Shown piece after piece: positions 3,478-53,957 of a stretch of 64,000 nucleotides of DNA. The position numbers and the translations under genes are program-made. The stretch comes from an uncultured Pelagibacteraceae bacterium (lineage in GTDB: Bacteria; Pseudomonadota; Alphaproteobacteria; Pelagibacterales; Pelagibacteraceae). Under the pieces are notes generated by a model that was not told the DNA's origin, ran no database searches, and saw only the letters and a program-made list of their open reading frames with translations. The stretch covers positions 1 through 64,000 of the forward strand of contig CACHGH010000004.1 of assembly GCA_902579215.1 (NCBI GenBank), read 5' to 3'. How positions within the stretch are numbered: position 1 is the stretch's first letter; every line of letters starts with the position of its first letter.

Positions 3478-5620
3478 TTTTAATCAATCTTAAGTGCAGT
3501 TGTTTAGGCTGCATTTTTAGTTTAGCTTTACCTCTTCCAGATAAGCTCGGATTATTCATAAAATATTCATGAGCTGAAAAGGAATCGTTATTACTATATT
3601 GAATTTTTTTATAATTACCATCAGCATTGAGCTCCCAGCTCTGATTAGTATCAAGATAATTTGCTAACATTATTTGATCTAAAATTTGCTCATGAACAGT
3701 TTCATTTTCAATTGGCACTAGAAGTTCTACTCTTCTATTTAAATTTCTCGGCATTAAATCGGCTGAAGAAATATATACTTTTGCATTTCTATTAGGCATT
3801 TTTTTTGTACCATTACTAAAGCAGTAAATTCTAGAATGCTCTAAAAATCTTCCTATGATACTTTTCACAACTATGTTTTCTGATCTATCTTTAACTCCTG
3901 GTCTTAAACAACAAACACCCCTTACAAATAAATGAATTTTTACACCAGCATTCGAAGCTTCATAAAATTTATCAATAATTTCTGGATCTACTAAAGAGTT
4001 CATTTTTGCCCAAATAGCTGCAAATTTTCCATTTTTAGAATTTTTAATTTCAGCATCAATATTTTCATTTAAGGTTTGCCTCATATTTACTGGCGAAATA
4101 GATATTTTATTTAAATTTTTTGGTTTTGCGTATCCTGTTACATAATTGAAAAACTTTTCAACATCTGATGCCATTTTCTTATCACAACTAAATAAAGACA
4201 AATCAGTGTAAATTTTAGCATTTACTGGATGATAATTGCCAGTTCCTAAATGAAAATAAGTTTGTATTTTACCCTGTTCTCTTCTTAAAACTAATGATGA
4301 TTTTGCATGAGTTTTATATTTAGCAAAACCATAAACAATTTGAACACCTACTTTTTCTAAACTTCTTGATAGTTGAATATTAGCTTCCTCATCAAATCTA
4401 GCTTTAATTTCAATTAAAGCGGTAACTGTTTTTCCGTTTTCTGCTGCTGTTATTAAAGCTTTAACAATTGGTGAGTCTAGAGTTGTTCTATACAAAGTCT
4501 GTTTAATAGCTATAACTTTTTTATCATTTGCTGCTTGGTTTAGAAATTCAATTACTGAGTCAAATGTTTCAAAAGGATGATGAACAACTAAATCTTTCTT
4601 TTTAATAGTTTCAAAAAAGTTATCATTATATTCTTTTAATCTTTCAACTTCTCTAGGTGTAAAATGCTTAAATCTTAATTTTGGATTTTTTACTTTACAT
4701 ATTTGATCTATATCTTGAATTCCAACAAGGCCAGATACATCGTAAATATAATCGGGATTTATATCTAATTTATTAGTTATAAATTTTACCAATTCATTAT
4801 CGCTATTTTCGAGGATCTCTAAACGAACAATATCACCCGTTCTACGTCTTTTTAAAGCCAATTCAAAAGATCTAACTAAATCTTCCGCTTCTTCTTGAAT
4901 TTCTACATCACTATCTCTTATTACTCTAAAAATCATTTTCTTTTCTAAATCATGATCTGGAAAAATTTCATTAGCAAAAAAACTTATTACATCATCTAGA
5001 ATTACAAATTTCTTATGATTTTTTGAAGACTCTATTTCAATAAATCTAGATAATGCTTTTGGTATTACTATTATGGAGTTTAAAACCCTTTTTTTATTTT
5101 TTTTTCTTAATTTCATTACAAGTGCTCTTCCTTGATTGATTATGAATGGAAATGGGTGCGCAGGATCAATTGCTGATGGTGTTAATAAAGGGTAAATCTC
5201 TTCATTAAATATTTCTAGAAGTTTTTTTTTATCCTTAGTATTTAAATTAACAGGTTTAACTAAACTGATATTATTTTTTTTTAATTCTATAATCAGTTGA
5301 GTAAAAATTTTGTTCTGTTTTTTTAATAAATTTTTAGTTTCAAGTACTACCTCATCCATCTGTTCTTCAGGTGTCAAACCATCAGAACTTAATGAGTCAA
5401 CTTCTTGTTTTATTTGACTATATAATCCAGCAACTCGGACCATAAAAAATTCATCTAGATTAGACCCAGCAATTGATAAAAATTTTACTCTTTCATAAAG
5501 TGGATTTTCAGTATTTTGTGCTTCTAGAAGTACTCTATCGTTGAATTTTAACCAAGAAAGCTCTCTATTCAAATATTTAGATTTCAGCTCTTCTTTATGT
5601 TGTTTTTTTAAAGCAGTCAT
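3464..5620 (-). CDS. ppk1: Polyphosphate kinase 1
   Basis: A full-length (718 residues) polyphosphate kinase 1, which reversibly transfers the terminal phosphate of ATP to a growing polyphosphate chain. The N-terminal domain begins with YLNRELSWLKFNDRVL. The autophosphorylated histidine lies in YGFAKYKTHAKSSLVLRR, and the second phospholipase-D-like half includes RGVCCLRPG, GRFLEHSRIYCF and SADLMPRNLNRRVE. The arginine and histidine residues expected at the active site are present. The start codon at 5620 lies only 13 bases from the divergent sixA start, so the two promoters must overlap the opposing genes. It is the first gene of the ppk1-ppx pair. Confidence 0.95.
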   Translation of the reverse strand: MTALKKQHKEELKSKYLNRELSWLKFNDRVLLEAQNTENPLYERVKFLSIAGSNLDEFFMVRVAGLYSQIKQEVDSLSSDGLTPEEQMDEVVLETKNLLKKQNKIFTQLIIELKKNNISLVKPVNLNTKDKKKLLEIFNEEIYPLLTPSAIDPAHPFPFIINQGRALVMKLRKKNKKRVLNSIIVIPKALSRFIEIESSKNHKKFVILDDVISFFANEIFPDHDLEKKMIFRVIRDSDVEIQEEAEDLVRSFELALKRRRTGDIVRLEILENSDNELVKFITNKLDINPDYIYDVSGLVGIQDIDQICKVKNPKLRFKHFTPREVERLKEYNDNFFETIKKKDLVVHHPFETFDSVIEFLNQAANDKKVIAIKQTLYRTTLDSPIVKALITAAENGKTVTALIEIKARFDEEANIQLSRSLEKVGVQIVYGFAKYKTHAKSSLVLRREQGKIQTYFHLGTGNYHPVNAKIYTDLSLFSCDKKMASDVEKFFNYVTGYAKPKNLNKISISPVNMRQTLNENIDAEIKNSKNGKFAAIWAKMNSLVDPEIIDKFYEASNAGVKIHLFVRGVCCLRPGVKDRSENIVVKSIIGRFLEHSRIYCFSNGTKKMPNRNAKVYISSADLMPRNLNRRVELLVPIENETVHEQILDQIMLANYLDTNQSWELNADGNYKKIQYSNNDSFSAHEYFMNNPSLSGRGKAKLKMQPKQLHLRLIKSGSN

Positions 5621-5633
5621 ATATTTAGATTTT

Positions 5634-6158
5634 ATGTATCAATTATACGTCATGAGACACGCAAAATCTAGTTGGGATGATTTAAGTATTAATGATTTTG
5701 ATAGACCACTTAGTAAAAGAGGCAAGAAAAATGCAAAAATGATTTGTGAATTTTTTGTTAAAAAAAAATTTAAATTTGATTATGCATTAATTTCATCATC
5801 AAAAAGAACAAAAAAAACTTTTCAAATTTTGTCCAAGAAAATTGATAGGCCAAAAAAAGTTAATTTTTCAAAAGATTTATATTTAGTTGATGAGAATGCA
5901 ATTACAAAAAAAATTAAAGAAATATCCAGTGAATATAAATCAATTTTGATTATAAACCATGAACCATCAGTGAAAAATTTAGTACGAAATCTTACAAAAA
6001 ATCATAATACGAATAATTTTAAACTAATGAATTATAAATTCCCAACAGCAGCATTTGCAAAAATTGATTTTGATATTAAATCCTGGAATGAAATTGAGAA
6101 AAAAGGAGTTTTAAAAGAATTTATAAGACCCAAAGATCTTCAAGATTCTAAAGAATAA
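5634..6158 (+). CDS. SixA-like phosphohistidine phosphatase
   Basis: A 174-residue protein of the histidine phosphatase superfamily, SixA branch. The phospho-accepting RHA motif is at residues 8-10 in YVMRHAKSSW, and a second active-site histidine appears in IINHEPS. SixA proteins remove phosphate from histidine of phosphocarrier or phosphotransfer proteins; the target here is unknown. The ATG at 5634 is chosen because the N terminus then matches the family. An in-frame upstream start at 5541 would run inside ppk1. The 3' end overlaps the convergent phoB end by 19 bases. Its place between ppk1 and phoB suggests, but does not prove, a link to phosphate signalling. Confidence 0.82.
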   Translation: MYQLYVMRHAKSSWDDLSINDFDRPLSKRGKKNAKMICEFFVKKKFKFDYALISSSKRTKKTFQILSKKIDRPKKVNFSKDLYLVDENAITKKIKEISSEYKSILIINHEPSVKNLVRNLTKNHNTNNFKLMNYKFPTAAFAKIDFDIKSWNEIEKKGVLKEFIRPKDLQDSKE

Positions 6159-6823
6159 CCAGCTGATCTCACTGTTCTAATTAAAGGTTTTGTATTTTGT
6201 ATGTTAATTGCTTGTCTCAATCTTCTAATATGAACATCTACTGTTCTAGACTCAACATATATATTTTCCCCCCAAACATTATTTAGAAGTTGTTCTCTTG
6301 AATAAACTCTTTTTGGATTTTTGATAAAAAAATCTAATAGTTTAAATTCAGTTGGACCTAAAGTAATTTCCTTATCTTTTCTATAAACTCTTTTTGTAAT
6401 CCGATCTATTTTTAAATCAATAAATTCTACAATGTCTGATGATGATTGAGGCTTAGATCTTCTCAATAAAGATTTAATTCTAGCATTTAATTCTTTTTGA
6501 CTAAAAGGTTTAGTTACATAATCATCTGCACCTGTATCAAATGCTTTTAATTTGTCTTCTTCCTCCCCTTTTGCAGTTAACATAATGACTGGAATATCAT
6601 TAAACTTATTATCTTTTTTTAAGTTTTTACAAATTTCAACACCAGATAATTCAGGTAACATCCAATCCATTAATATCAAATCTGGCTGTTTTGATTTTAT
6701 TTGTTTAAGAGCATCTTCTCCATTTTCTGAATGACTGACTTTATAACCTTCTTTTTCAAGATTGTACTTTAACAAACTAACAATTGATGCTTCATCTTCA
6801 GCTATAAAAACATGAGCTGACAT
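6140..6823 (-). CDS. phoB: Phosphate response regulator PhoB
   Basis: An OmpR/PhoB-family response regulator of 227 residues. The receiver domain has acidic residues ED at 9-10, the phospho-accepting Asp53 in LILMDWMLPELSG, the conserved Thr in MLTAKGEE and Lys in YVTKPFSQKE. The C-terminal winged-helix DNA-binding domain covers about residues 130-227, with the typical RTVDVHIRRLRQAI recognition region. It is the last gene of the minus-strand pst cluster, three bases after phoU, and is expected to be phosphorylated by the PhoR encoded in the same cluster when phosphate is low. The probable DNA targets are the repeated elements before pstS and plcP. Identity as PhoB is strongly supported by context. 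Confidence 0.95.
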   Translation of the reverse strand: MSAHVFIAEDEASIVSLLKYNLEKEGYKVSHSENGEDALKQIKSKQPDLILMDWMLPELSGVEICKNLKKDNKFNDIPVIMLTAKGEEEDKLKAFDTGADDYVTKPFSQKELNARIKSLLRRSKPQSSSDIVEFIDLKIDRITKRVYRKDKEITLGPTEFKLLDFFIKNPKRVYSREQLLNNVWGENIYVESRTVDVHIRRLRQAINIQNTKPLIRTVRSAGYSLES

Positions 6824-6826
6824 AAA

Positions 6827-7534
6827 TCATTTTTCTCCAGTTACAATTGGCTCGGTGCCCTTAGGTCTGTCACCTTCTAAATATTCACCTTTAGCTAAAT
6901 AATAAATTTGTTCTGCAACATTTGTAGTATGATCGCCAATACGCTCAACGTTTTTGGTCACAAACAACAAGTGAGTTCCATCCTCTAAATTTTTTTCATT
7001 TTCTTTAAGATATTTTATAACTTCTTGCATACATAGATTTGTTAGATCATCTATTTGCTCATCACCTTCCCAAACATTTACTGCCATTGGCGCAGATCTT
7101 TCTAGATAAGCGTCTAATGTTGATTTTAATTGTTTTTGAACACCGTTAGATACTCTATTTAATGAATCTACCAAATTCTTTGGAAGATTTTCATTAAGCA
7201 AAAGTGTTCTCTTGGATATATTTTTTGCTAAATCACCTATTCTTTCTAAATCTGAAGACATTTTCAAAGCTGTTACTGTCTCTCTTAAATCAATTGCCAT
7301 AGGTTGTCTCAATGCAATTAAATTTACGACTTGTTGTTCAATCAAAGTTTCATATTTATCTATTTTTTCATCGTCTTGAATTACTGCTTCCGCAAAGTCG
7401 CTATTTCTTGTGGTAATGGCTTGAATTGCTTTACCCAAAGCTTCCTCACATGCACTTCCCATTTTAATGATATTAGCATTTAGATTTTTGAGTTCTTCTT
7501 CGTAAGATTTAACTGTATGTGGTGCTTCAGACAT
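6827..7534 (-). CDS. phoU: Phosphate signalling protein PhoU
   Basis: A 235-residue cytoplasmic all-helical protein with two PhoU repeats, carrying the characteristic ALKMSSDLERIGDLAKNI and TKNVERIGDHTTNVAEQI metal-binding motifs. PhoU connects the Pst transporter to PhoR and dampens the response when phosphate is plentiful. Its start overlaps the pstB stop by one base (TAATG), and phoB follows after three bases, so transporter, sensor link and regulator are co-translated. Full length, with no unusual features. Confidence 0.95.
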   Translation of the reverse strand: MSEAPHTVKSYEEELKNLNANIIKMGSACEEALGKAIQAITTRNSDFAEAVIQDDEKIDKYETLIEQQVVNLIALRQPMAIDLRETVTALKMSSDLERIGDLAKNISKRTLLLNENLPKNLVDSLNRVSNGVQKQLKSTLDAYLERSAPMAVNVWEGDEQIDDLTNLCMQEVIKYLKENEKNLEDGTHLLFVTKNVERIGDHTTNVAEQIYYLAKGEYLEGDRPKGTEPIVTGEK

Positions 7535-8289
7535 TATCCAAACCTCCCGGTTATATAGTCCTGGGTTTTTTTATTATCAGGATTCTTAAATATTTTATCA
7601 GTAGATCCATGTTCTATCAATTGTCCTAAGTGAAAAAAACCTGTATTTTGAGATACACGTGCCGCTTGAGCCATAGAATGAGTTACAATTATTATTGTGT
7701 GCTCTTTTTTTAATTCATCAATCAATTCTTCAATTTGTGCTGTTGCTATAGGATCTAATGCTGAACAAGGCTCATCCATTAATATAACTTCAGGTCTTAC
7801 AGAAATTGCTCTAGCAATACAAAGTCTTTGCTGTTGCCCTCCAGATAATCCAGTTCCAGGTTCATGCAACCTATCTTTTACCTCTTCCCATAGTGCAGCT
7901 TTTTTTAAGCTAGTTTCAACAATTTCATCCATTTCTTGTTTTGATTGAGCTATACCATGAATTGTTGGACCGTAAGATACATTTTCATATAAAGTTTTTG
8001 GGAAAGGATTAGGTTTTTGAAAAACCATACCAATTTTTTCTCTTAGTCTTACTACATCACAACCTTTATCATTGATATTAAAGTCATTAATTAAAATTTC
8101 TCCTTTAACACTGCAGATATCAATTACATCATTCATTCTATTAAGACATCTTAGGAAAGTTGATTTACCACAACCAGATGGACCAATTAATGCCGTGACT
8201 TGATTTTCCTCAATATCTAAACTTATATTAAAGAGTGCTTGTTTTTTTCCGTAAAAAACATCAACATCTTTTGCTTTAATCTTTATCAT
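7534..8289 (-). CDS. pstB: Phosphate ABC transporter ATPase PstB
   Basis: ATP-binding subunit of the high-affinity phosphate importer, 251 residues from the preferred start. Visible are Walker A GPSGCGKS, the Q-loop region [13 protein letters not shown] (typical of PstB), the signature LSGGQQQR, Walker [12 protein letters not shown] and the switch histidine in VTHSMAQA. The ATG at 8289 is chosen over one at 8310 because GGAG lies five bases before it and it starts one base past the pstA stop. The N-terminal [14 protein letters not shown] matches the family. It sits third in the pstCAB order and overlaps phoU by one base. Confidence 0.95.
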
Positions 8290-8290
8290 T

Positions 8291-9559
8291 TTAACTCCAT
8301 TTTTTCTCAAACTTATGTCTTATTATTTGGGCAAATAAATTCATTATTATTAAAAAGCCAAGTAAGACCATTATACATGCTGAAACTTTTTCTACAAATC
8401 CCCTTTCAGCACTTTCAGCCCAAATATAAATTTGAACTGGTAAACTTGCAGCAGGATCCATAGGTGATCCAGGTATCGTGTTAACAAAAGCAACCATTCC
8501 AATTAAAATTAGGGGTGCAGTTTCTCCTAAAGCTTGAGCTAAACCAATTATTGTTCCTGATAACGTACCAGGCATAGAAAGAGGAACTGTATGATGCATT
8601 GTGGTTTGCATTCGACTTGCTCCCATAGCAAGTGCTGCCTCTCTTATACTTGGTGGAACCGCTTTTAAAGATGCTCTAGCAGCTATAATTATTGTTGGTA
8701 AAGTCATTAAGGACAAAGTGATACCTCCAACTAATGGGGTAGACCTTGGTAGTTGAAATATAGCTAATAAAATGCCTAACCCTAATAGACCAAAAACTAT
8801 AGATGGAACTGCTGCTAAGTTATTTATATTTACTTCAATAAAATCAGTGAATCTATTTTTAGGGGCAAATTCTTCAAGATAGATTGCTGCTAGAACCGCT
8901 ACAGGAAAAGCTATCATTAAACAAACAAGTATAGAAAAAATTGAGCCCATAAATGAACTTGCTATTCCAGCTAGTTCTGCTTCTCTTGAGTCAGCATTTG
9001 TAAAAAAGCTAATATTAAATTTACTTTCAACCTTACCATTTGCAACAAGTTGATCAAAAATTTTTAATTGATAATCGCTTACTCTTCTTTGGTCTTCAGG
9101 TAAATCTCTTGGATAATTTCCTTTAAAGACTTGGTCTAAGTCATCAGATGCAGTTAGGTAAACTTCTTTGGTTTTTCCTAATAAATTTGGATCTTTTAAT
9201 AATTCTTGTTTTATCTCTCTTTCAAAGAAATAAGAAACCATTCTTTTTAATTGATTTTGTTGATCCTCATTAGCGTTAGGGTCTAAATTCCACATTGATT
9301 GAAGTGCTATTTCGTAATAGTCCGCATCTTCGATATCTTGTTTTGTTGGATTTTCATCTAACATCATTAATTCAGCATCAAAGGTTACTGGAACAATGAG
9401 CCAAGTTTTTTGAAAAGCAGAATAGCCAGTTGAAAAAATTTTAAAAATAAAGATTGTTAAAAATAAAAGTGCCATAAAAATTGCACTTTGACCGTATAAG
9501 CGAAATCTCTGCTCAGCCTTGTATCTTTTATTTAATAATTGTTCTTTATTTTTATTCAT
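8291..9559 (-). CDS. pstA: Phosphate ABC transporter permease PstA
   Basis: Membrane subunit of the phosphate importer, 422 residues from the preferred start. It has an N-terminal transmembrane segment (about residues 30-45), a long hydrophilic periplasmic insert to about residue 195, and a C-terminal permease domain with the EAA-type loop (around [20 protein letters not shown]). The long periplasmic insert makes it larger than the E. coli protein, a form seen in alphaproteobacteria. The ATG at 9559 is preferred over the one at 9583: AGAGAGA precedes it, and it overlaps the pstC stop by only 8 bases. Confidence 0.93.
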
Positions 9560-10937
9560 ATTTCTCTCTATATTTTTTAACAACTCTTAAGGCCACAATG
9601 TTTAAACAAAGCGTTACTAAAAATAATGACATACCTAAAGCAAAAGCAGCTTGTGTTTTTGGGTCGCCAAAAGCTTGATCACCAATTAGAATAACTACAA
9701 TTTGAGCTGTAATTGTTGAAGTAGACTCTAATGGATTTAAAGTTAAATTAGCAGCTAAACCAGAGGCCATAACAACTATCATTGTTTCACCAATAGCTCT
9801 TGAAACACCAAGTAAAATAGATCCAACTATCCCCGGCAATGCTGCAGGAAAAATAACTCTCTTGATTGTTTCTGATTTAGTTGCTCCCATAGCATAACTT
9901 CCATCTCTTAAACTTTGAGGTACACTTGTAATTACATCGTCACTTAAACTTGAAATAAATGGTATGATCATAATGCCCATTACCCCTCCTGCTGCTAAAG
10001 CACTTTCAGCTGAAACTTCAAGACCCATAGAGGTTCCTAATTCTTTTAAAAATGGGCCAACAGTTAGGGCAGCAAAAAAACCATAAACAACTGTTGGTAT
10101 ACCAGCTAAAATTTCAATTAAAGGTTTTGCGTATTGTCTAACTTTATATGATGCATATTCAGCTAAATAAATTCCACTCATTAATCCAATTGGGATAGCA
10201 ACGCACATAGCAATAAATGCAATAAAAAATGTGCCTGCAAAAATAGGGACCGCTCCAAAAGTATCAGAATACATTGACGGATCTAAAGCCTCAGAAGAAT
10301 CTCTAACAAAAGCTTTTGCTGGATACCAGTGAGTTCCAAAGACAAAATCAAATAATGGAATTACTTTAAAAAAATCTATAGTTTGAAATATAAGTGAGAA
10401 AACTATTCCAACAGTAGTTAATATTGCGGCTAATGAAGCTGTAAATAAAACTGCGTTCAAAAATTTTTCAACTGGTTCTCTTGTTCTAGAATTAGATGAA
10501 ATTCTTTTATACGCATAAGCAACAGAGGCAATGATTGCAGACAATACTATAACAACTTTTGAACTTTGAGCTATTGATCGAAGACTTAAATATTTTTCAG
10601 CTGAAGCTTCAATAAAAGGTGTAATTTCTCCAGTGAATTGACCTCGAGACAATGCTTTTGTTTTTTCGTATATTAAATTTAATTCATCATCAAGATAACC
10701 TTGATTTGAATAATCACTTAAAACTAATAGTTTTACAATTGTGGGCTCAAAAATTGCCCATAAAGAAAAAATTATAAAGGCTGGTATTGCACACCAGATC
10801 GCAAGATAATAACCATAAAATTGAGGTAATGCAGTTAATCTTTTTTTGGTAGATTGAATTGTGTATGCTTTTTTACGTCCAAAATAATAACTTGTGAAAC
10901 CTAGAAGAACAATAAATGTAAACAATATTAAGTTCAA
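9552..10937 (-). CDS. pstC: Phosphate ABC transporter permease PstC
   Basis: A 461-residue permease subunit of the phosphate importer. The N terminus has several hydrophobic segments and a periplasmic loop before the conserved transport domain, which begins near FDFVFGTHWYPAKAF and contains the cytoplasmic EAA-type loop GSYAMGATKSETIKRVIFPA. The N-terminal part is expanded like that of PstA. It is separated from pstS by 91 bases holding a strong hairpin, so less of the permease than of the binding protein is expected. Downstream it overlaps pstA. Confidence 0.94.
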   Translation of the reverse strand: MNLILFTFIVLLGFTSYYFGRKKAYTIQSTKKRLTALPQFYGYYLAIWCAIPAFIIFSLWAIFEPTIVKLLVLSDYSNQGYLDDELNLIYEKTKALSRGQFTGEITPFIEASAEKYLSLRSIAQSSKVVIVLSAIIASVAYAYKRISSNSRTREPVEKFLNAVLFTASLAAILTTVGIVFSLIFQTIDFFKVIPLFDFVFGTHWYPAKAFVRDSSEALDPSMYSDTFGAVPIFAGTFFIAFIAMCVAIPIGLMSGIYLAEYASYKVRQYAKPLIEILAGIPTVVYGFFAALTVGPFLKELGTSMGLEVSAESALAAGGVMGIMIIPFISSLSDDVITSVPQSLRDGSYAMGATKSETIKRVIFPAALPGIVGSILLGVSRAIGETMIVVMASGLAANLTLNPLESTSTITAQIVVILIGDQAFGDPKTQAAFALGMSLFLVTLCLNIVALRVVKKYREKYE

Positions 10938-11028: not shown

Positions 11029-12060
11029 TTAATTACCCATAGCAACTAGTTTGGTAGCATTAGTTCTAGTTGTTTTATACAACTTAGAGTCTAATGGCAC
11101 TAAACCAATGTCTGCTAGGTAACCACCTTTTCCAATAGCTTTCTTTGTTGTGAATTCTTTCACAAACTCATGTAAGCCTGGAATTACTCCAACGTGAGCT
11201 TTTTTCACGTAGAAGAATAAAGGTCTAGCAACAGCATAACTGTAGTCTTGAATAGACTTCAATGATGGTTGTCCACCATCAATACTTGCTGCTTGTAATT
11301 TATCTTTTGCAGCTAAGAAATAACTGAAACCAAAGAAACCAAACATATCTTTATCTTGAGTTAACTTTTGGATGATTAAACTATCATTTTCTCCAACTTC
11401 AATAGCAGCACCATCTTCTCTGTAAAGTTTTTGAGGTTTTTTGTATTTTTTATTTCCAGCTTCAAAACCAGCTTTATAAAGAGCTTTAGCTTCTTTAGTC
11501 ATACCTTTTTTCATCACTAAAGAATTCCAAGCATCTCTAGTTCCTGATGTTCCTGGTGGGATCATCACTGAAATTTTTTGTTTTGGTAAACTAGAGTCAA
11601 TTTGGTCCCAAGTTTTATAAATATTTGGAACTAATTTACCATCAACAACTGTATGAGCAGCTAGTGCTAAATACAAATGTTCTTTAGTAAAGTTTACTGG
11701 TTTTGCATCTTTGCTGTAAGCTAATGTAATACCATCGTTACCAATTACGATCTCAACGATTTCATTTACACCATTTTTCTTACATAGAGCTTTTTCTTTA
11801 TCTTTCATAGCTCTTGATGCGTTTGTAATATCTGGATGTTGTTCACCTACACCAGCACAGAATAGTTTAGCTCCACCACCAGTACCAGTAGATTCGATTA
11901 CAGGAGTTTTAAATCCTGAACCACCAAATCTTTCAGCAACAACTGTTGCATAAGGGAATACCGTAGAAGAACCAACTATCTTAATTTGATCTCTTGCTTG
12001 AGCAACAGTTGCAATTGAAAGTGCAACTAAAGAAGCAATTACTATAGTTAGTTTTTTCAT
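11029..12060 (-). CDS. pstS: Phosphate-binding periplasmic protein PstS
   Basis: Periplasmic phosphate receptor of 343 residues. A signal peptide covers about residues 1-22 (ending VAQA-RD). The mature start IKIVGSSTVFPYA and the phosphate-site segments STGTGGGAKLFCAG and MIPPGTSGTRDAWNSL are typical of PstS. It delivers phosphate to PstCA. It is the first gene of the transport part and is followed by a strong hairpin, and it is preceded by a repeated element probably recognised by PhoB. PstS is commonly very abundant in SAR11 cells under low phosphate, but that is background knowledge rather than something visible here. Confidence 0.96.
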   Translation of the reverse strand: MKKLTIVIASLVALSIATVAQARDQIKIVGSSTVFPYATVVAERFGGSGFKTPVIESTGTGGGAKLFCAGVGEQHPDITNASRAMKDKEKALCKKNGVNEIVEIVIGNDGITLAYSKDAKPVNFTKEHLYLALAAHTVVDGKLVPNIYKTWDQIDSSLPKQKISVMIPPGTSGTRDAWNSLVMKKGMTKEAKALYKAGFEAGNKKYKKPQKLYREDGAAIEVGENDSLIIQKLTQDKDMFGFFGFSYFLAAKDKLQAASIDGGQPSLKSIQDYSYAVARPLFFYVKKAHVGVIPGLHEFVKEFTTKKAIGKGGYLADIGLVPLDSKLYKTTRTNATKLVAMGN

Positions 12061-12124
12061 TATCTTTAATCCTTTCGTTATTTATTAATTAAAAGATGTG
12101 AGACTCCTATAAATTTATTGAATC

Positions 12125-12158
12125 TTTAATATTACAAATTTGTTACACTTTTGTTAAA
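12125..12158 (-). promoter_or_regulatory. Candidate Pho box upstream of pstS
   Basis: On the minus strand this region reads TAACAAA-AGTG-TAACAAA-TTTG-TAATATT, three heptamer-like units with an 11-base period as in Pho boxes. The core TAACAAATTTGTAAYATTA recurs in the plcP/dagK intergenic region at 15959-15979, in the same orientation to plcP, with 20 of 21 bases equal. It ends 64 bases before the pstS ATG, leaving room for a -10 element. PhoB binding is inferred. Confidence 0.65.
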
Positions 12159-12169
12159 AAGGTAACTTT

Positions 12170-12778
12170 TTAGTTGTAATTTTTTGATATAATTATCTGA
12201 TCAGTATCAGCTTCTAGACCACCAATACATGAAACAGGGTTTACCTGTTCACTAAGAGCGAGTTCATTGCTTGGACGTAAAGTTATTTCTAGTTTTACTA
12301 AGTTTACTAATTCTTCTCTAATTTCTTCATCATATCTCCAGCTAGGCCATGAACTTGGGGTTGAAAATATAGAGGTTAAATAACTTGTAGCCATAGTATA
12401 TCTGTAATTACTCAAATTTTCATTCCTCAATAAAAAATTTCTTACAGAATTAAAAATATTCCTACATCTAAAAGAATCTGAAAAATAATTTTTCTTCTTG
12501 AGATTTTCATTCATAGGAACAGAAACAATTAAATCAATTGAATTTTTAGAATACGAGGTAACTACGTCTGTATAAAATTCAGCTTCAGTAACTTCTAAAT
12601 GATCTTTTATAGAAGGATATGAGGTTTTTAAATCTGCTTCTAATCTAAAAATTCCAATATCAAAAACTGTAAGTTGCTGATTTCTTAGTATGGTTGTGAT
12701 ATCTTTTGAAAAAGCACTTGTTATTAAAGAGCTTAAAAAAATAACATAAATCAAAATATTTTTAAATATTTTAACCAT
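12170..12778 (-). CDS. Exported protein of unknown function in the pho/pst cluster
   Basis: A 202-residue protein that I do not recognise. The first 24 residues look like a signal peptide (charged MVKIFK, then hydrophobic IYVIFLSSLITSAFS, followed by KDI), so it is probably periplasmic or secreted. It has two cysteines (in FRCRN and VSCIGG) that might form a disulphide. Motifs such as YTMATSYLTSIFS and SSWPSWRYDEEIREEL do not match a family I know. It sits between phoR and pstS, in the same direction, 90 bases after phoR and 109 bases before pstS. This placement suggests a role in phosphate acquisition or sensing, but no function is assigned. Confidence 0.7.
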   Translation of the reverse strand: MVKIFKNILIYVIFLSSLITSAFSKDITTILRNQQLTVFDIGIFRLEADLKTSYPSIKDHLEVTEAEFYTDVVTSYSKNSIDLIVSVPMNENLKKKNYFSDSFRCRNIFNSVRNFLLRNENLSNYRYTMATSYLTSIFSTPSSWPSWRYDEEIREELVNLVKLEITLRPSNELALSEQVNPVSCIGGLEADTDQIIISKNYN

Positions 12779-12868: not shown

Positions 12869-14014
12869 CTAAGTTTTCGCTGGTAAATAAATTTGGATTT
12901 CAGTTCCTTTATTCTCTTCACTTAGAATCTCATAGTGTCCACGATGTTGAGTAATTATATGTTTAACAATAGCTAATCCTAAACCAGTTCCACCAACTTT
13001 ATTACTTTGTTCAAGATCTACTCTAAAAAATCTTTCTGTAATTCTAGAAATAAATCTTTGAGGAATGCCAACACCTTCGTCTTTAACACTGATCATAAAA
13101 TTTTTTTCTAACAATTTACCATCACTAATTTCACTTGATATAAAAATAGACTTATTTTCCATTGAATACTTAATTGCATTATCTAAAAGATTAGAAAAAA
13201 CAGTTTGTAATTTTTTTTTATCTCCAATAACAATTGTTGGATTTGCGAGAGATAAATTAATGTTTAATTTCTTTTTTTTTAAAATAATCTCAAAATTACT
13301 GATGATTGTTTTGAAAAGATCATTTATATCAACTAAAGTGCTTGGCCTTATATGTTCTTCTAATTCAATTCTTGTGAGTATTAAAAGATCATTAACTAAA
13401 TTTTCCATTCTATTTGATTGATCAGTGATTATTTTCATAAATTTTTTTTTAGCCTTTTCATCATCAGACGCTGGACCTTCAATAGTTTCTAAAGATCCTT
13501 TGATTGCCATTAAAGGTGTTCTTAATTCGTGACTTACATTGGCTACAAAATCAGTTTTAAATTTTTGTGCTTTTGTAATTTCAGTAAAATCTTTAAAAAA
13601 TAACACAACAGAATCTGGTTCAGTAAATAAATGAGTTGGGCCAGGGATGATATAAATCTTATAAAATTGATATGATGGCAAGTCTATTTCAACATCAATA
13701 TTTTTTGTTTTATTTTCAATTATAGCTTTTTCAATATTTTCTATTAATTCTGGTTTTCGAATTACAGAAGAAATGTTTTTATCAATTAAACTACTTCCAA
13801 ATCTTTTTAATGCACTTGGATTAGCATATTTAATTATATTAAATTTATTTAATGCAAAAAACTGATCCTCAAGCTCATCAATAATTACTCTTTTAGTTTT
13901 TTCTTCTCTTTTATTAATTATTGTGGCTGTATTTATTGGTTTGTTTTTTTTTTGATTAAGTAAATATAGAAGATAAATTATAACAACTATAAGTAGAATG
14001 ACGAAATATTCCAT
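12869..14014 (-). CDS. phoR: Phosphate sensor histidine kinase PhoR
   Basis: A 381-residue membrane histidine kinase. One N-terminal transmembrane helix (about residues 3-19) has almost no periplasmic part, as expected for PhoR, which senses the Pst/PhoU state from inside. A PAS-like domain follows (about 50-145), then the dimerisation H-box FVANVSHELRTPLMAIKG with His162. The ATPase domain shows N-box DNAIKYS, G1 DEGVGIP and G2 GGTGLGLAIVKH. It sits between agt and the unknown exported gene. Its partner is the phoB product at the other end of the cluster. Confidence 0.92.
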   Translation of the reverse strand: MEYFVILLIVVIIYLLYLLNQKKNKPINTATIINKREEKTKRVIIDELEDQFFALNKFNIIKYANPSALKRFGSSLIDKNISSVIRKPELIENIEKAIIENKTKNIDVEIDLPSYQFYKIYIIPGPTHLFTEPDSVVLFFKDFTEITKAQKFKTDFVANVSHELRTPLMAIKGSLETIEGPASDDEKAKKKFMKIITDQSNRMENLVNDLLILTRIELEEHIRPSTLVDINDLFKTIISNFEIILKKKKLNINLSLANPTIVIGDKKKLQTVFSNLLDNAIKYSMENKSIFISSEISDGKLLEKNFMISVKDEGVGIPQRFISRITERFFRVDLEQSNKVGGTGLGLAIVKHIITQHRGHYEILSEENKGTEIQIYLPAKT

Positions 14015-14078: not shown

Positions 14079-15086
14079 CTAATGATTTGGTGAAATATTA
14101 TTAAAAAATATTTTTGCTGTTTCTTCCCAAGTGAATTTCTTTGCAAATTCAAGACAATCATTTCTGTCAACTTTTAAAGCTTTATGGGCTGAAACTTTAA
14201 GATCATTATCTAAACAATTTATTTTGGATCCTTCAAATATATCTTTAGGACCTGGAACAGGATACGCAGCAACAGGAGTACCACAATTTAAAGCCTCAGT
14301 AACTACAATTCCAAATGTATCTGTTTTACTAGGGAATACAAAAACATCAGAAGATGCAAAATATGATGCAAGTGCACCATTTGTTTTTTCTCCTAAAAAA
14401 ATATCTTTAGGGAATTCTTCTTTTAATTTTTTTAAATCGGGTCCTTTTCCTATTATTATTTTTGTACCTTCTAAATCACATTCTAAGAAAGCTCTTATGT
14501 TTTTTTCAACTGCAACTCTTCCAACATAAATCCAAATTGGTCTTTTGTGATGTAATTCAATTTTTTTAGGTTTCTTAAAGGCTCCGTGATTTCCCCCTCT
14601 GGTCCAAGTAATCATTTTATTATTATCTATACCTATATCGATTAATTCTTTTCTCATGGATTCTGTTGTTACTAAAATTCTCTCGGCCTTGTTATGAAAA
14701 TTTGCTAAGAATTTTTCAGCCCATTTTGCTGGTATAATAGGAAAGTAAAGTTTTAGATATTTATCAAATCTTGTATGGAAACTCGTAGTAAACTTTAGAT
14801 TATTTTTTAAACAATATCTTCTTGCCATCGTCCCTATAGGACCTTCGGTAGCAATATGTATTGCATCAGGTTTTATTTTCTTTATTAAACTACCAACTCT
14901 TGGCCATACATTTATAGACAACCTAATTTCGTTATATTTCGGCATCGGAAAAGTTAAAAATAAGTCTGGTGTAATATATTCTATAATATGACCTTGTTCT
15001 TTTAATACATTGCCTGTTTCATGTAAGGTTCTTACGACACCATTTACTTGTGGAAAATATGCATCTGTCGCTATTAAAATTTTCAT
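14079..15086 (-). CDS. agt: GT4 glycosyltransferase, probable glycolipid synthase (Agt-like)
   Basis: A 335-residue GT-B fold family 4 glycosyltransferase. The N-terminal acceptor domain starts ILIATDAYFPQVNGVVRT and has a typical SFHTRFDKYL motif. The nucleotide-sugar domain has IYVGRVAVEKN and the EX7E-type region SKTDTFGIVVTEALNCGTP. This N-terminal pattern is shared with diacylglycerol-sugar and phosphatidylinositol-mannose-type transferases. In marine bacteria an agt next to plcP makes monoglucosyl or glucuronosyl diacylglycerol from the diacylglycerol that PlcP releases. Here the gene starts three bases after the plcP stop, so it almost certainly acts with it. The sugar donor (UDP-glucose, UDP-galactose or UDP-glucuronate) cannot be read from the sequence. 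Confidence 0.85.
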   Translation of the reverse strand: MKILIATDAYFPQVNGVVRTLHETGNVLKEQGHIIEYITPDLFLTFPMPKYNEIRLSINVWPRVGSLIKKIKPDAIHIATEGPIGTMARRYCLKNNLKFTTSFHTRFDKYLKLYFPIIPAKWAEKFLANFHNKAERILVTTESMRKELIDIGIDNNKMITWTRGGNHGAFKKPKKIELHHKRPIWIYVGRVAVEKNIRAFLECDLEGTKIIIGKGPDLKKLKEEFPKDIFLGEKTNGALASYFASSDVFVFPSKTDTFGIVVTEALNCGTPVAAYPVPGPKDIFEGSKINCLDNDLKVSAHKALKVDRNDCLEFAKKFTWEETAKIFFNNISPNH

Positions 15087-15089
15087 TAA

Positions 15090-15902
15090 CTATGAAGCTT
15101 TTTTTAAGTCTTCAGTTTTAATTGGTTTAATTATTTCTTTAGCGTCTAAATATTGTTCTCTTATTTTGTCCCAATATAATATTTCAAAACTACCATCATA
15201 ATTTTCGGCTAATGCAGTGCAGGATTCAACCCAGTCTCCACAATTTAAATAATTGACCCCATTAAAATCTCTATCTTCAGCATGATGGATGTGGCCACAA
15301 ATAATTCCATCAAATTTTTTTCTTTTTGCATAATCTGAGACTGTTTTTTCATATTCACCAATATATTTGACTGCGTTTTTGACTTTATACTTTAAAAATT
15401 TTGCAAGAGACCAATATTCTTTTCCTCGCAACCTTCTAAAAAAGTTAATTATTACATTTAATTGTAACAATAAATTATAGGCTATTGATCCAAGTTTAGA
15501 TAACCATTTAGCATGTTTCATAACACCATCCCAAGCATCACCATGAACAACGACATATTTTTTTCCAGAATTTGTTTCATGAATAACTCTATTAACCATT
15601 TGGATGTCACCAAAATGCATTGGAATAAATTTTCTTAACATTTCGTCATGATTACCCATTATGTAGAAAACTTTAGTACCATGCCTTGCTTTTCTTAAAA
15701 TTTTTTGAATTACATCATTATGTTCTTGAGGCCAAAAAAAACTTTTTTGCATTTCCCAAATATCTATAATATCTCCTACAAGATAAAGATTTTCAGATCT
15801 TGAGTTTTTAAAAAACTCTAAAAGTTTATTTGCCTGACATCCCTTGGTACCTAAATGCACGTCAGAAATAAATATACTTTTGTATTTAAGTATATTAGGC
15901 AT
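15090..15902 (-). CDS. plcP: PlcP-like phospholipase C (metallophosphoesterase)
   Basis: A 270-residue calcineurin-like metallophosphoesterase with the metal-ligand motifs SDVHLG (13-18), VGDIIDIW (42-49), MGNHDE (82-87), VVHGDAWD (about 117-124) and CGHIHHAED (about 195-203). By family alone it would be labelled UDP-2,3-diacylglucosamine hydrolase (LpxH-like). Two facts argue for PlcP, the enzyme that cuts phospholipid head groups under phosphate stress: it forms an operon with an agt-like transferase and phoR, and the lipid A operon in this window already carries lpxI. It is the first gene of the minus-strand pho cluster, with a pstS-like regulatory element upstream. There is no signal peptide, so it acts on the inner face of the membrane. 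Confidence 0.85.
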   Translation of the reverse strand: MPNILKYKSIFISDVHLGTKGCQANKLLEFFKNSRSENLYLVGDIIDIWEMQKSFFWPQEHNDVIQKILRKARHGTKVFYIMGNHDEMLRKFIPMHFGDIQMVNRVIHETNSGKKYVVVHGDAWDGVMKHAKWLSKLGSIAYNLLLQLNVIINFFRRLRGKEYWSLAKFLKYKVKNAVKYIGEYEKTVSDYAKRKKFDGIICGHIHHAEDRDFNGVNYLNCGDWVESCTALAENYDGSFEILYWDKIREQYLDAKEIIKPIKTEDLKKAS

Positions 15903-15958
15903 TTAAAAAACTTTTTTTTAACACAACTGTAACACGAATCATGTAATTCTTATTTCAT

Positions 15959-15980
15959 TTTAATGTTACAAATTTGTTAA
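15959..15980. promoter_or_regulatory. Candidate Pho box between plcP and dagK-like gene
   Basis: On the minus strand the core TAACAAATTTGTAACATTA matches the element before pstS in 20 of 21 bases and lies 56 bases before the plcP start, close to the 64 bases seen for pstS. On the plus strand it reads ATGTTAC-AAAT-TTGTTAA, two heptamers with an 11-base period, ending 20 bases before the dagK-like start. Control of both divergent genes by PhoB is inferred. Confidence 0.62.
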
Positions 15981-16000
15981 AAATTTTTTAAGGATTAATT

Positions 16001-16885
16001 ATGTTGTATTGTTTAATTTACAATTTGAACTCTTCTGCTGGAAGAAAATCAAAGTTCATAAATAAAGTTTTATCTAAATTAAAAAAAAACAATTCTGTAG
16101 ACTACTTTGAGACCAATACAATAAGTCAAGCTAAGAAAATTTTTAAAGATTTTAATCAAAAAAATTATGATCGACTAATAATAGCTGGTGGTGATGGTTC
16201 AGTTTCTTTTGCAATTAATGAATTAATTAAAAATAATTTTAATTTTAAAGACGATTTTGCCATAGGTTATATTCCTGCTGGCACTGCAAATTTGCTTCAA
16301 GCTGAATTATCAATGAATAAAAAAGTTGACGATATAGTCAATGTATTGATTTCTAACAATTATAAATCCTCTAATCTTGTAAAAATTAACGAGAATTATT
16401 TCTTTTTAATGGCTGGTATAGGGTGGGATGCAAAAATTGTTCATTCAATTAATTCAAAAATTAAAAAAATTCTTGGTAAAATTATTTTCGGCATTAAAGG
16501 TTTTCAATATTTCTTATTTATGAATAATAAAAAATTAAATGTAACTTTTGATGGGCAATTTTATCAAGCAGATTGGATATTATCTTCAAATACCAAATAT
16601 TACGCTGGACATCATAAAATAAATAAAACAAATATTTTTGAAGATAAATTAGTCACCTATATTTTTAAAGATTTGACTAGGGTCAGTTTATTATATTCTA
16701 TATTCTTAATAATTCTTAATGGTGATTTAAGTAAAAACAAAAATGTTATTACTACTTATTCAAAAAACATCACCATTGATGGAAATGATTTGATACCTGT
16801 TCAAATTGATGGAGATAATTTTGGTTCATATAAAAAAATTCATTTAAATCAATCAAATAAAAAAGTGAATTTTCTTATAAAATAA
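16001..16885 (+). CDS. Diacylglycerol kinase-like lipid kinase (DagK/YegS family)
   Basis: A 294-residue lipid kinase of the diacylglycerol kinase catalytic superfamily. The nucleotide motif GGDGS is at residues 63-67, followed by the family motif YIPAGTANLLQAEL at about 89-102. The catalytic-core segments MAGIGWDAKIV and PVQIDGDNFG are also present. It phosphorylates diacylglycerol or a related lipid using ATP in the cytoplasm. The ATG at 16001 has AAGGA six bases upstream. It is divergent from plcP across 98 bases and shares the candidate Pho box. A likely job is to return PlcP-released diacylglycerol to phosphatidate, balancing its conversion to glycolipid by Agt. The substrate is inferred; a sphingoid or other lipid is possible. 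Confidence 0.82.
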   Translation: MLYCLIYNLNSSAGRKSKFINKVLSKLKKNNSVDYFETNTISQAKKIFKDFNQKNYDRLIIAGGDGSVSFAINELIKNNFNFKDDFAIGYIPAGTANLLQAELSMNKKVDDIVNVLISNNYKSSNLVKINENYFFLMAGIGWDAKIVHSINSKIKKILGKIIFGIKGFQYFLFMNNKKLNVTFDGQFYQADWILSSNTKYYAGHHKINKTNIFEDKLVTYIFKDLTRVSLLYSIFLIILNGDLSKNKNVITTYSKNITIDGNDLIPVQIDGDNFGSYKKIHLNQSNKKVNFLIK

Positions 16886-16924: not shown

Positions 16925-17263
16925 TTAAGAACTTACTTTTCCTAAATAGTTTACTAGTACCACACCTATAATTATTAAGATTATACCAATAGTTCCATAA
17001 ATATTAGGTAATTGATTATATTTTAAAATACCAAAGATTGTTACTGCAGTAATTGTTAATCCTCCATAAGTTGCATAAGTATAACCTACTGGAATTATAT
17101 TCATTGCTTTAGATAAGCAAAAAATACAAAGGACGATTGATATAATACAAAAAATTGTAGGAAAAATATTTGTAAATCCATTGGTGGTTTTTAAAAATCC
17201 ATTAGCTGAAATTCCAAGTATTATCGCTAGAAATAAATAAATATATCCAGATGTAGTATTCAT
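16925..17263 (-). CDS. SMR-family-like membrane protein lacking the proton-coupling glutamate
   Basis: A 112-residue protein with four transmembrane helices, the size and layout of small multidrug resistance proteins. Signatures such as SGYIYLFLAIILG, NGFTNIFPT, IIPVGYTYATYGGL and GVVLVNYLG align with EmrE. The residue aligned to the essential Glu14 of EmrE is Gly (LAIILGIS), and Trp63 of the YAIW motif is Tyr. Both are central for proton-coupled drug export, so ordinary EmrE-type efflux is unlikely. It follows a BASS transporter gene by three bases and is the last gene of the valS operon. It could be a flippase, a channel or a partner subunit; the function is unknown. Confidence 0.75.
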   Translation of the reverse strand: MNTTSGYIYLFLAIILGISANGFLKTTNGFTNIFPTIFCIISIVLCIFCLSKAMNIIPVGYTYATYGGLTITAVTIFGILKYNQLPNIYGTIGIILIIIGVVLVNYLGKVSS

Positions 17264-17266
17264 ATT

Positions 17267-18130
17267 CTATTCACTATCCTCAACATAAATAAATTTCAAA
17301 CCAATTACATAGATAAAAATCACAGCATACATCAATAAACTGTATGTTGCTATTGGCACTAGATAAACAGGATCATTAAATATTAAGCCCGTTACAACAA
17401 TTGCTAAAGTTCCATTTTGTAATCCGGTTTCGATTAATATTGTTTTTTTGGCGGGTTTCTCAACTTTAAAAATACTACATAATAGGAGTGCCCCGGCTAA
17501 AACCATTACATTTAAAACAAATGTTACCATACCACTTGCTGAAAAGTATCCTAAAAGATTGTCATATTCTTGATAAATTGCCATAAACAAAAAAACTAAA
17601 AAAAGAATAAAAGATAAATTAATAAAAAATTTTTCAAATCTAGCTATTAAGTTTGGTAGCAAAATCTTTAAAATCATTCCTAGAACTACTGGCACTGTGG
17701 TTATTAAAAAGATTTGGATAATAATACTGCCAATTGAATATTCAAAAGGTAAAACTTGTCCAGTTACAATTGGATATGTAAATGAAAAAATTAGAGGAAC
17801 GGTAACAAAGCAAAGCAAGCTAATAACAGCAGTTAATGAGATGGATAGCGCGACATCACCTCCTGCAAACTTTGAAATTACATTTGTTGTAACACCACCT
17901 GGTGCAGCTGCTAGTAATATAAGCCCTACCTTTAATTCTACAGGTAAAGGGAAAATTAAAGCGATCGATATCGCTATTAAAGGAAAAATAATTACTTGAG
18001 ATAATGCTCCTACAAAGAAGTTTTTTGGCTGAGTGAGGATATTCTTAAAGTTATTAATTGAAAGACCCATTCCAAGTGAAAGCATTATAAATGCTAAAAT
18101 GATTGGTCCTGCAATTTTTACTAGTTCCAT
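17267..18130 (-). CDS. Bile acid:sodium symporter (BASS) family transporter
   Basis: A 287-residue membrane protein with about nine hydrophobic helices. Family motifs include MLSLGMGLSINNF, LLAAAPGGVTTNVISKFAGGD and IETGLQNGTLAIVV, the crossing-helix regions of the BASS fold. Bacterial members import organic anions such as pyruvate, pantoate, 2-keto acids or sulphonates with sodium. The substrate is not readable here. It starts five bases after manC and is followed at three bases by the SMR-like gene, so the two membrane proteins may work together. The neighbouring ilvD makes a branched-chain keto acid, which makes a keto acid substrate possible but unproven. Confidence 0.85.
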   Translation of the reverse strand: MELVKIAGPIILAFIMLSLGMGLSINNFKNILTQPKNFFVGALSQVIIFPLIAISIALIFPLPVELKVGLILLAAAPGGVTTNVISKFAGGDVALSISLTAVISLLCFVTVPLIFSFTYPIVTGQVLPFEYSIGSIIIQIFLITTVPVVLGMILKILLPNLIARFEKFFINLSFILFLVFLFMAIYQEYDNLLGYFSASGMVTFVLNVMVLAGALLLCSIFKVEKPAKKTILIETGLQNGTLAIVVTGLIFNDPVYLVPIATYSLLMYAVIFIYVIGLKFIYVEDSE

Positions 18131-51218: not shown

Positions 51219-52331
51219 TACTGCAGAAGCTTCATCAGAGGATGAGGTTTTTGATCTGATTTTAGTTAAAGTTTCCTCACAATCATTAATTTGTTTTTTC
51301 ATTAATTCTGGATTTTTTAAAAAATAGACAACTGAATTAAAAATTTCTTTAGCATTACATTCTTTTTGTATTAATTCTGGAATTATTTCTTTGTTATTAA
51401 TAATATTAATGATGTTAGCAAATTTAATTTTAACTAACATTTTGACAATTAAAAAATTCAAAAAATTCATTTTATAGATAATTATAGAGGGAACTTTTGC
51501 ATTACAAATTTCAAGAGAAACTGTACCAGATTTAGAAACTGCAAAAATAGATTTATCTAGTATTTGTTTTTTAATATTTTCGTCATAAATGACCTCAGCA
51601 TTTTCAACATTTGTATTATTTATTTTTTCACTTATTAAATTCTTATTCTCATCAGTTGCGTGAAAAACAAAAGTGAAATTATCAAATTTTTTATTCATCA
51701 TATTTATAAAATCTATCAAAATAGGTAATAGTAAATTTACTTCAGATAATCTACTGCCAGAAAAAAGAGAAATAATTTTTTTATCATTTGATATGATGCT
51801 AGATAGATCTATTTTATTTTTTGACTCTTGTTCTAATAATGGATGTCCGACGAAAGTATTTGGAATATTTTCTTTATCAAAATATTTTTTTTCAAAATCA
51901 AATAATAATAAAATATGATCTAAGAACTTCTTAAACTTTTTAACCCTTCCCTCTCTCCAAACCCAAACTTGAGGAGCTACATAATGTATTGTTTTAATAT
52001 TAGGATTAATGCTTTTTACTTTTTTAGCAACTCTCAAAGTAAAATCTGGACTATCTACACTAAATAAAATATCTGGATTAAATTTTATTATTTCTTCAAC
52101 AGTTTTGTTTATTTTATTTTTTATCTTCAAAATATTTAAAAAAACACTTGTGAAACCAATGTAAGTAATTTCTTTAAGGTCAAAAATAGATTTTATTCCT
52201 AACGAATTTAAATGTGTTCCACCAACACAAGAATACTCAACGTTAGGGTTATTTTTTTGAAGTTTAGATATCACTTTTGAAGCAAGTTTATCTCCTGAAG
52301 GTTCACCAGTTAATATAAAAATTTTTTTCAT
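51195..52331 (-). CDS. lpxB: Lipid-A-disaccharide synthase
   Basis: A 378-residue GT-B fold transferase that joins UDP-diacylglucosamine to lipid X, forming the lipid A disaccharide. Motifs: ILTGEPSGDKLASKVI, CVGGTHLNSLG, YVAPQVWVWREGRVKK, TFVGHPLLE and SKSGTVSLEICNA. It overlaps lpxI by 4 bases (ATGA). It is the last gene of the block bamA-skp-lpxD-fabZ-lpxA-lpxI-lpxB. Confidence 0.95.
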   Translation of the reverse strand: MKKIFILTGEPSGDKLASKVISKLQKNNPNVEYSCVGGTHLNSLGIKSIFDLKEITYIGFTSVFLNILKIKNKINKTVEEIIKFNPDILFSVDSPDFTLRVAKKVKSINPNIKTIHYVAPQVWVWREGRVKKFKKFLDHILLLFDFEKKYFDKENIPNTFVGHPLLEQESKNKIDLSSIISNDKKIISLFSGSRLSEVNLLLPILIDFINMMNKKFDNFTFVFHATDENKNLISEKINNTNVENAEVIYDENIKKQILDKSIFAVSKSGTVSLEICNAKVPSIIIYKMNFLNFLIVKMLVKIKFANIINIINNKEIIPELIQKECNAKEIFNSVVYFLKNPELMKKQINDCEETLTKIRSKTSSSDEASAVLTKFLIG

Positions 52332-53122
52332 ATAACTGAGATAAACATCCTATTTTTATTAGCAAATTTAATACATTTGCTTTTATCTAAAAAAACATGT
52401 TGTTTGTTTTTAACTACAATACCCTTTAATCCAGCTGTTTTACTTTGTTTTAAAGTTTTTAATCCAATGGTAGGTAGATCTACCCTCAAGTCTTGTTTCT
52501 TTTTTGGAAACTTGACTAAAACACCATGGTTCCTTAATTTTTTACTTCTGCTTTTTTCAAGCATTTTTTTAGTTCCACCTTTTCCTTCTATAGAAACTAC
52601 TTTTTTATTTCTAACTACAGCTCCTTGGCTAAAATTATATTGTCTTAAATTATTTAAAGTTTTTATTGCTATTTTTATATCTAATTGATCTTGTTTGTTT
52701 GGTTTAATCTTTGAATAGTTACCTTTCTTTAAGGATAGTTCAGGATTAAATATAAGTGAATTTTCAGTTTTGATTTTATTTTGAACTAATATTTTAATAA
52801 TTTCTTTAAGTATTGCTGCATCTCCAAGTTTAGATGCTTTGATTATTCTAGGGATATAATAAATACCTTTGAAGTCTAATTTCAGTTTAGAAAAGTTAGG
52901 TTTATTTACTTTTCCGGCAAATAAGACTTTTTTACAGTTATTCTCTTTTAGAATATTAATAATTTTACCGAATTGACCTATGGAAACTGAATAAGACTTT
53001 GTATCCTTTTTAAACTTCTTTGATTTTGACAAATCAATTATCAAATATTTAATTTTTCTTTTTTTGACAGTTTTTACAATTTCCTTTGGAAATTCAGTAT
53101 CACCAAAAATTAATCCTATCAT
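52328..53122 (-). CDS. lpxI: UDP-2,3-diacylglucosamine pyrophosphatase LpxI
   Basis: A 264-residue LpxI (DUF1009) protein, which makes lipid X from UDP-2,3-diacylglucosamine; it replaces the unrelated LpxH in many alphaproteobacteria. Visible family segments are LIFGDTEFPKEIV at the N terminus, VGQFG-like SIGQFGKIINILKENNC, LGDAAILKEII and the C-terminal DLPTIGLKTLKQSKTAGLKGI. It lies between lpxA and lpxB, two bases after lpxA. Its presence means the metallophosphoesterase beside the pst cluster is not needed as LpxH. Confidence 0.92.
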   Translation of the reverse strand: MIGLIFGDTEFPKEIVKTVKKRKIKYLIIDLSKSKKFKKDTKSYSVSIGQFGKIINILKENNCKKVLFAGKVNKPNFSKLKLDFKGIYYIPRIIKASKLGDAAILKEIIKILVQNKIKTENSLIFNPELSLKKGNYSKIKPNKQDQLDIKIAIKTLNNLRQYNFSQGAVVRNKKVVSIEGKGGTKKMLEKSRSKKLRNHGVLVKFPKKKQDLRVDLPTIGLKTLKQSKTAGLKGIVVKNKQHVFLDKSKCIKFANKNRMFISVI

Positions 53123-53903: not shown

Positions 53904-53957
53904 TGATATCTTTATTATCAAAGTTGAAGTTATTTTCTTATCAATAAATATTGCTAA

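Follow-up and report, generated by a model that had tools for sequence, protein, structure and literature searches.

On sequence evidence, the gene at 15090..15902 (minus strand) of the analysed window, a 64,000-nt stretch of DNA from an uncultured Pelagibacteraceae bacterium, belongs to the PlcP (also termed LpxH2) family and is not LpxH. It is almost certainly a SAR11 plcP, acting in a Pho-induced plcP-agt pair that would turn phospholipid via diacylglycerol into glycolipid, with lipid X supplied by LpxI instead. PlcP is a known enzyme, often mislabelled LpxH and otherwise ordinary, and neither the pair nor its clade is new, since PlcP and Agt of the SAR11 strain HTCC7211 have already been tested by others. 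SAR11 bacteria are some of the most abundant marine cells. Under phosphate shortage they probably use PlcP to remove the phosphate-bearing head groups of their membrane lipids and let sugars take their place; this swap of phospholipid for glycolipid is a main way to cut phosphorus need. An LpxH name on plcP hides the lipid-remodelling trait, and the gene set here is a lipid-remodelling unit. The features of the locus are:

phoB, 6140-6823, minus strand: PhoB model above cut-off
phoU, 6827-7534, minus strand: PhoU model above cut-off
pstB, 7534-8310, minus strand: PstB model above cut-off
pstA, 8291-9583, minus strand: named from ORF order and synteny
pstC, 9552-10937, minus strand: named from ORF order and synteny
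pstS, 11029..12060, minus strand: phosphate-binding protein, TIGR02136 133 bits (below the cut-off of 206.6), named from context
pstS upstream region, 12061..12169: two Pho-box-like repeats, 12132-12147 (minus) and 12141-12156 (plus)
predicted exported protein, 12170..12778, minus strand: between pstS and phoR
phoR, 12869..14014, minus strand: phosphate-regulon sensor histidine kinase
agt, 14079..15086, minus strand: GT4 glycosyltransferase predicted, from motifs and co-occurrence with plcP, to transfer glucose or glucuronic acid onto diacylglycerol
plcP, 15090..15902, minus strand: predicted Mn-type metallophosphoesterase and predicted phospholipase C releasing diacylglycerol, from the tree, the GNHD motif and LpxH-model scores below cut-off
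divergent promoter region shared by plcP and the lipid kinase gene, 15903..16000: 98 bp with two Pho-box-like direct repeats, 15919-15934 (minus) and 15964-15979 (plus)
YegS/DgkB-type lipid kinase, 16001..16885, plus strand: predicted diacylglycerol kinase, divergent from plcP

The plcP reading frame is intact, with an ATG start, 270 encoded residues and no internal stop, and is single-copy in the assembly (1.01 Mb, 33 contigs, 83% complete). The closest named loci come from single-cell genomes of Pelagibacteraceae/Pelagibacterales, with 95–98% protein identity. The protein is a calcineurin-type metallophosphoesterase (Metallophos domain PF00149, 50.6 bits against a cut-off of 21.5) and keeps the complete D, H, D, N, H, H, H ligand set of two-metal phosphoesterases (D14, H16, D44, N84, H120, H204 and H206), which is conserved in 48/48 PlcP-type proteins. 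PlcP is read as a two-metal phosphoesterase, probably with Mn as the metal. The same core and seven metal ligands are found in LpxH (E. coli b0524; PDB 5b49, 5k8k, 6ph9), which differs in its GNRD arginine, its lipid X contacts and its insert.

The original prediction, that this metallophosphoesterase is probably PlcP and not LpxH, had set phylogeny against characterised members of both families beforehand as its refutation test. A maximum-likelihood tree (LG+C20+F+G4) built from 68 proteins places PlcP, Sinorhizobium meliloti PlcP and 37 further rows on one side of a branch, and E. coli LpxH plus 28 others on the opposite side; the branch has support 100/100 and is found in all 200 bootstrap trees examined (100%). 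Of the LpxH-side proteins, 28 score above the LpxH model cut-off. The prediction passed this test, and GNHD in place of GNRD, the gene context and the presence of LpxI, described below, bear it out as well. The S. meliloti sequence (L194) is read as PlcP (SMc00171) because its gene adjoins those for an AHL synthase and for a regulator of the LuxR type; the sin genes flank SMc00171. It is 46% identical to PlcP over 246 residues and shares GNHD, but its gene is followed by an MFS transporter, not by agt as in SAR11.

Residues that define LpxH are replaced in PlcP. The position of LpxH Arg80 (GNRD) is His85 (GNHD) in our alignment, with histidine in 48/48 PlcP-type proteins and 0/31 LpxH and arginine in 31/31 LpxH. 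This arginine binds the beta-phosphate and is reported to replace His in LpxH only, where it is unique and universal (PMC5016852). Phe82, Asp122 and Tyr125, invariant across the LpxH set, are also replaced, and some thirty further alignment columns split the two groups. Judged from these alignments, PlcP has other residues where LpxH recognises the beta-phosphate and lipid X.

Scores against profile models agree with the tree: the two curated NCBI LpxH models give PlcP 52.3 bits against a cut-off of 134 and 41.2 bits against a cut-off of 190.35. The expectation that the family would automatically be annotated as LpxH is borne out, with the correction that these models do not themselves assign the name. 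Database homologues carry it: at least 10 of the best 15 plasmid-collection records (46–52% identity) are called ‘UDP-2,3-diacylglucosamine diphosphatase’, the remainder having no listed feature, and so is the S. meliloti plcP gene beside the AHL synthase and LuxR-type regulator.

We also modelled PlcP with AlphaFold2 (35 relatives; pLDDT 82.5, pTM 0.80). The phosphoesterase core is confident; a helical insert, residues 126–180, is the least certain part. The top 13 PDB fold matches are all LpxH, with TM of about 0.5, rmsd of about 8 to 12 Å and 16–20% identity in the fold alignments. A profile search of the PDB found no PlcP-family structure. With LpxH proteins making up all of the nearest solved folds, the two families cannot be told apart by fold alone.

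Lipid A synthesis in this genome has its own gene for the step in question. As the original prediction had noted, lpxI lies between lpxA and lpxB:

lpxA, 53124-53921: first in the order lpxA-lpxI-lpxB
lpxI, 52328..53122, minus strand: UDP-diacylglucosamine step, NF047836 168 bits, E 2.4e-49 (cut-off 400)
lpxB, 51195-52331: last in the order lpxA-lpxI-lpxB

On this reading, LpxI and not PlcP would make lipid X in this genome. None of the 81 genomes of the order Pelagibacterales contains an LpxH above the model cut-off. In a phylum-wide sample, true LpxH is present in 58/199 genomes, all outside Alphaproteobacteria; by table count, a PlcP-type gene with no LpxH above cut-off is present in this genome and in 40 more of the alphaproteobacterial genomes sampled, and 27 other genomes have both. 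Within the genus, plcP is present in at least 11/49 genomes, a lower bound because assemblies are incomplete; its absence is uncertain in three (G027, G033, G039) because contigs end at the locus. A gene that coexists with LpxH elsewhere and is missing from most genomes of its genus is therefore unlike an essential lipid A enzyme.

The genes next to plcP point to lipid remodelling. The start of agt lies 3 nt past the plcP stop, a spacing preserved in 80/80 of the best named Pelagibacteraceae loci, and phoR follows 64 nt downstream of agt. Among the 81 genomes of the order, agt is present in 27/27 with plcP and 0/54 without it; the latter contain at most a weak GT4 match. Agt carries the H104-D256 dyad, GRVAVEKN at 189 and FPSKTDTFG at 251, the features reported for HTCC7211 GTcp (catalytic dyad His104-Asp256, motifs GRVAxEKN and FPSxTDTFG; PMC8231724). 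The link of PlcP-type genes to a gene for non-phosphorus lipid synthesis (agt or btaAB) under Pho control is seen here in the adjoining agt, the nearby phoR and pst genes and the Pho-box-like repeats. The coupling of plcP to a glycosyltransferase and phoR had been part of the original prediction, as had the argument that context favours phospholipid head-group hydrolysis; both are upheld, the context being the published SAR11 plcP-agt unit (PMC4796936).

The plcP-agt pair lies upstream of phoR and pstSCAB-phoU-phoB. PhoR is a clear family match below the equivalog cut-offs (TIGR02966, 280 bits, cut-off 334; NF046044 PnpS, 283 bits, cut-off 400), and its gene is next after plcP-agt in 72/80 of the best named Pelagibacteraceae loci. 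The predicted exported protein at 12170-12778 has no match in NCBIfam or Pfam; it is present in the plcP-bearing loci of the genus and was not found in the alternative type of phosphate locus described below. The polyphosphate kinase gene ppk (3464-5620, minus) and an exopolyphosphatase-like gene (1966-3477, minus) lie beside phoB.

The pattern TGTWAC-N5-TGTWA, a SAR11-like form of the Pho box, has four matches in the 64 kb, every one of them within the short stretches that precede pstS and plcP; a first-order model predicts 0.23, and the maximum in 100 simulations was 3. Because we settled on this pattern after viewing the sequence, the signal is suggestive only. The site on the plcP strand consists of two 11-bp repeats, TTTTTAACAAA-TTTGTAACATT, and resembles GTGTAACAATT-CTGTAATATTA before pstS in relatives. 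Matches occur in 83/96 plcP and 74/77 pstS upstream regions, mostly of close homologues, and strict matches fade in remoter relatives. The standard Pho box, TGTCA-N6-TGTCA with two mismatches, gave no signal (52 matches against 54.9 expected). Putative Pho boxes in plcP clusters have been reported (PMC4796936). Adjacency and the Pho-box-like sites suggest that PhoR-PhoB probably switches on plcP-agt under phosphate scarcity.

PlcP would then split membrane phospholipid, releasing diacylglycerol and a phospho-head group, as its family and the published complementation by a SAR11 PlcP suggest. For homologues, others have demonstrated such a phospholipase C activity and its Mn dependence. Agt would add glucose or glucuronic acid to diacylglycerol, yielding MGDG and GADG as others showed for the HTCC7211 homologue, and the cell would regain phosphorus while keeping a glycolipid membrane. 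A Phaeobacter plcP mutant regains DGTS synthesis when given HTCC7211 PlcP, and E. coli carrying HTCC7211 Agt produces MGDG and GADG (PMC4796936). By published description, the ‘Candidatus Pelagibacter’ HTCC7211 proteins, PlcP (PB7211_983) and Agt/GTcp (PB7211_960, WP_008545403), match ours in clade, plcP-agt order, Pho-regulon setting, Agt motifs and Agt length (335 aa here, 334 in HTCC7211), with no known difference; the HTCC7211 locus falls outside the best 80 named loci. Papers describe a similar plcP-agt pair with a Pho box in Pseudomonas aeruginosa, PlcP (PA3219, LpxH2 in older literature) and Agt1 (PA3218), in a genome that, unlike this one, also has true LpxH. A P. aeruginosa plcP mutant loses MGDG (PMC8528852).

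Could the enzyme nevertheless be LpxH, which cleaves UDP-2,3-diacylglucosamine and so provides lipid X for making lipid A? The shared superfamily, the LpxH structures that are nearest by both sequence and fold, and the database names of homologues would fit. We give this reading next to no chance: the tree places PlcP apart, Arg80, Phe82, Asp122 and Tyr125 are missing, lpxI is present, plcP is patchy within the genus whereas making lipid A is a core function, and P. aeruginosa LpxH2 did not replace the LpxH of E. coli (PMC3087551, citing Babinski). It is also highly improbable that PlcP is bifunctional and backs up LpxI through weak hydrolysis of UDP-diacylglucosamine. Ancestry shared with LpxH and a published speculation that LpxH and LpxH2 are interchangeable (PMC3087551) speak for it; replacement of the recognition residues, and the fact that most genomes of the genus manage without plcP, speak against it.

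The substrate of PlcP leaves more latitude. PG and PE, named in the original prediction and proposed for SAR11 PlcP (PMC8231724), are plausible. S. meliloti PlcP acted on PE and PC only, and the specificity of the SAR11 enzyme is said to need further study (PMC4796936). These differing ranges, and an insert that in our model would be expected to contact substrate and is the part least certain, leave some room for a phosphoesterase of the PlcP family that acts mainly on another lipid, such as phosphatidic acid or PE only, and still feeds diacylglycerol to Agt. We consider this unlikely, as HTCC7211 PlcP can stand in for its Phaeobacter counterpart (PMC4796936). Hydrolysis of membrane phospholipids by PlcP for glycolipid synthesis by Agt remains our preferred reading.

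The divergent gene at 16001-16885 encodes a lipid kinase (DAGK_cat PF00781, 78.5 bits against a cut-off of 23.6; TIGR00147, 102.6 bits against a cut-off of 118.65) and shares the 98-bp promoter region and its Pho-box-like sites with plcP. It adjoins plcP in 78/80 of the best named Pelagibacteraceae loci, and none of these loci with room for the kinase lacks it. All 11 plcP-bearing members of the genus have the kinase (two partial, at contig ends), and no member without plcP does. The kinase might return diacylglycerol to phosphatidic acid. Tentatively, it could join PlcP and Agt as a further phosphate-regulated component of lipid swapping in SAR11, a safety valve or a route back to phospholipid once phosphate returns, a possibility that we hold with some doubt. 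We found no description of such a role for SAR11 in the literature searched. The conserved divergent kinase, the quantified exclusion of LpxH and the pointer to a probable mislabel in HIMB59 (below) are the additions of this analysis.

Part of the co-occurrence of kinase and plcP within the genus reflects linkage, because the two sit on a swappable phosphate island. Four same-genus genomes without plcP (G004, G009, G012, G022) have a different phosphate locus between valS-ilvD-manC and the pst genes, with phoR ~45% and pstS ~66% identical and without kinase, plcP or agt. This alternative occupies the same place; plcP therefore travels with one version of the island. Versions less than 60% identical at one position have already been reported (PMC7318151). 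In a second family of the order, plcP-agt is retained at 50–60% identity; ppk, ppx, phoR and pstS lie nearby, and the kinase is absent. A 2023 study of HIMB59 phosphate islands lists ‘DGK, LpxH, RfaG’, describes the glycosyltransferase and diacylglycerol kinase as having no direct phosphorus function and proposes no lipid-swap role for the trio (PMC10734472). The matching gene set, by names, hints that the HIMB59 ‘LpxH’ is a probable plcP under the same mislabel (PMC10734472).

Some minor features were noted. In G012, a complete plcP-less genome of the genus, reading by eye revealed an ORF of ~110 aa that resembles a DgkA-type diacylglycerol kinase in the same place (L211 6720-7300). In the window, genes for an SMR-type (Emr/Qac) small transporter and a bile acid:sodium symporter-type protein (16925-18130, minus) lie between the lipid kinase gene and manC. 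The symporter is found in 0/80 and the small transporter in 4/80 of the best named loci, so this is a variable insertion site. Finally, trpE (45214-46678, plus) is read as two ORFs, split where an A-rich stretch near 45846 seems to contain one frameshift, which may be a real lesion or a sequencing or assembly error.
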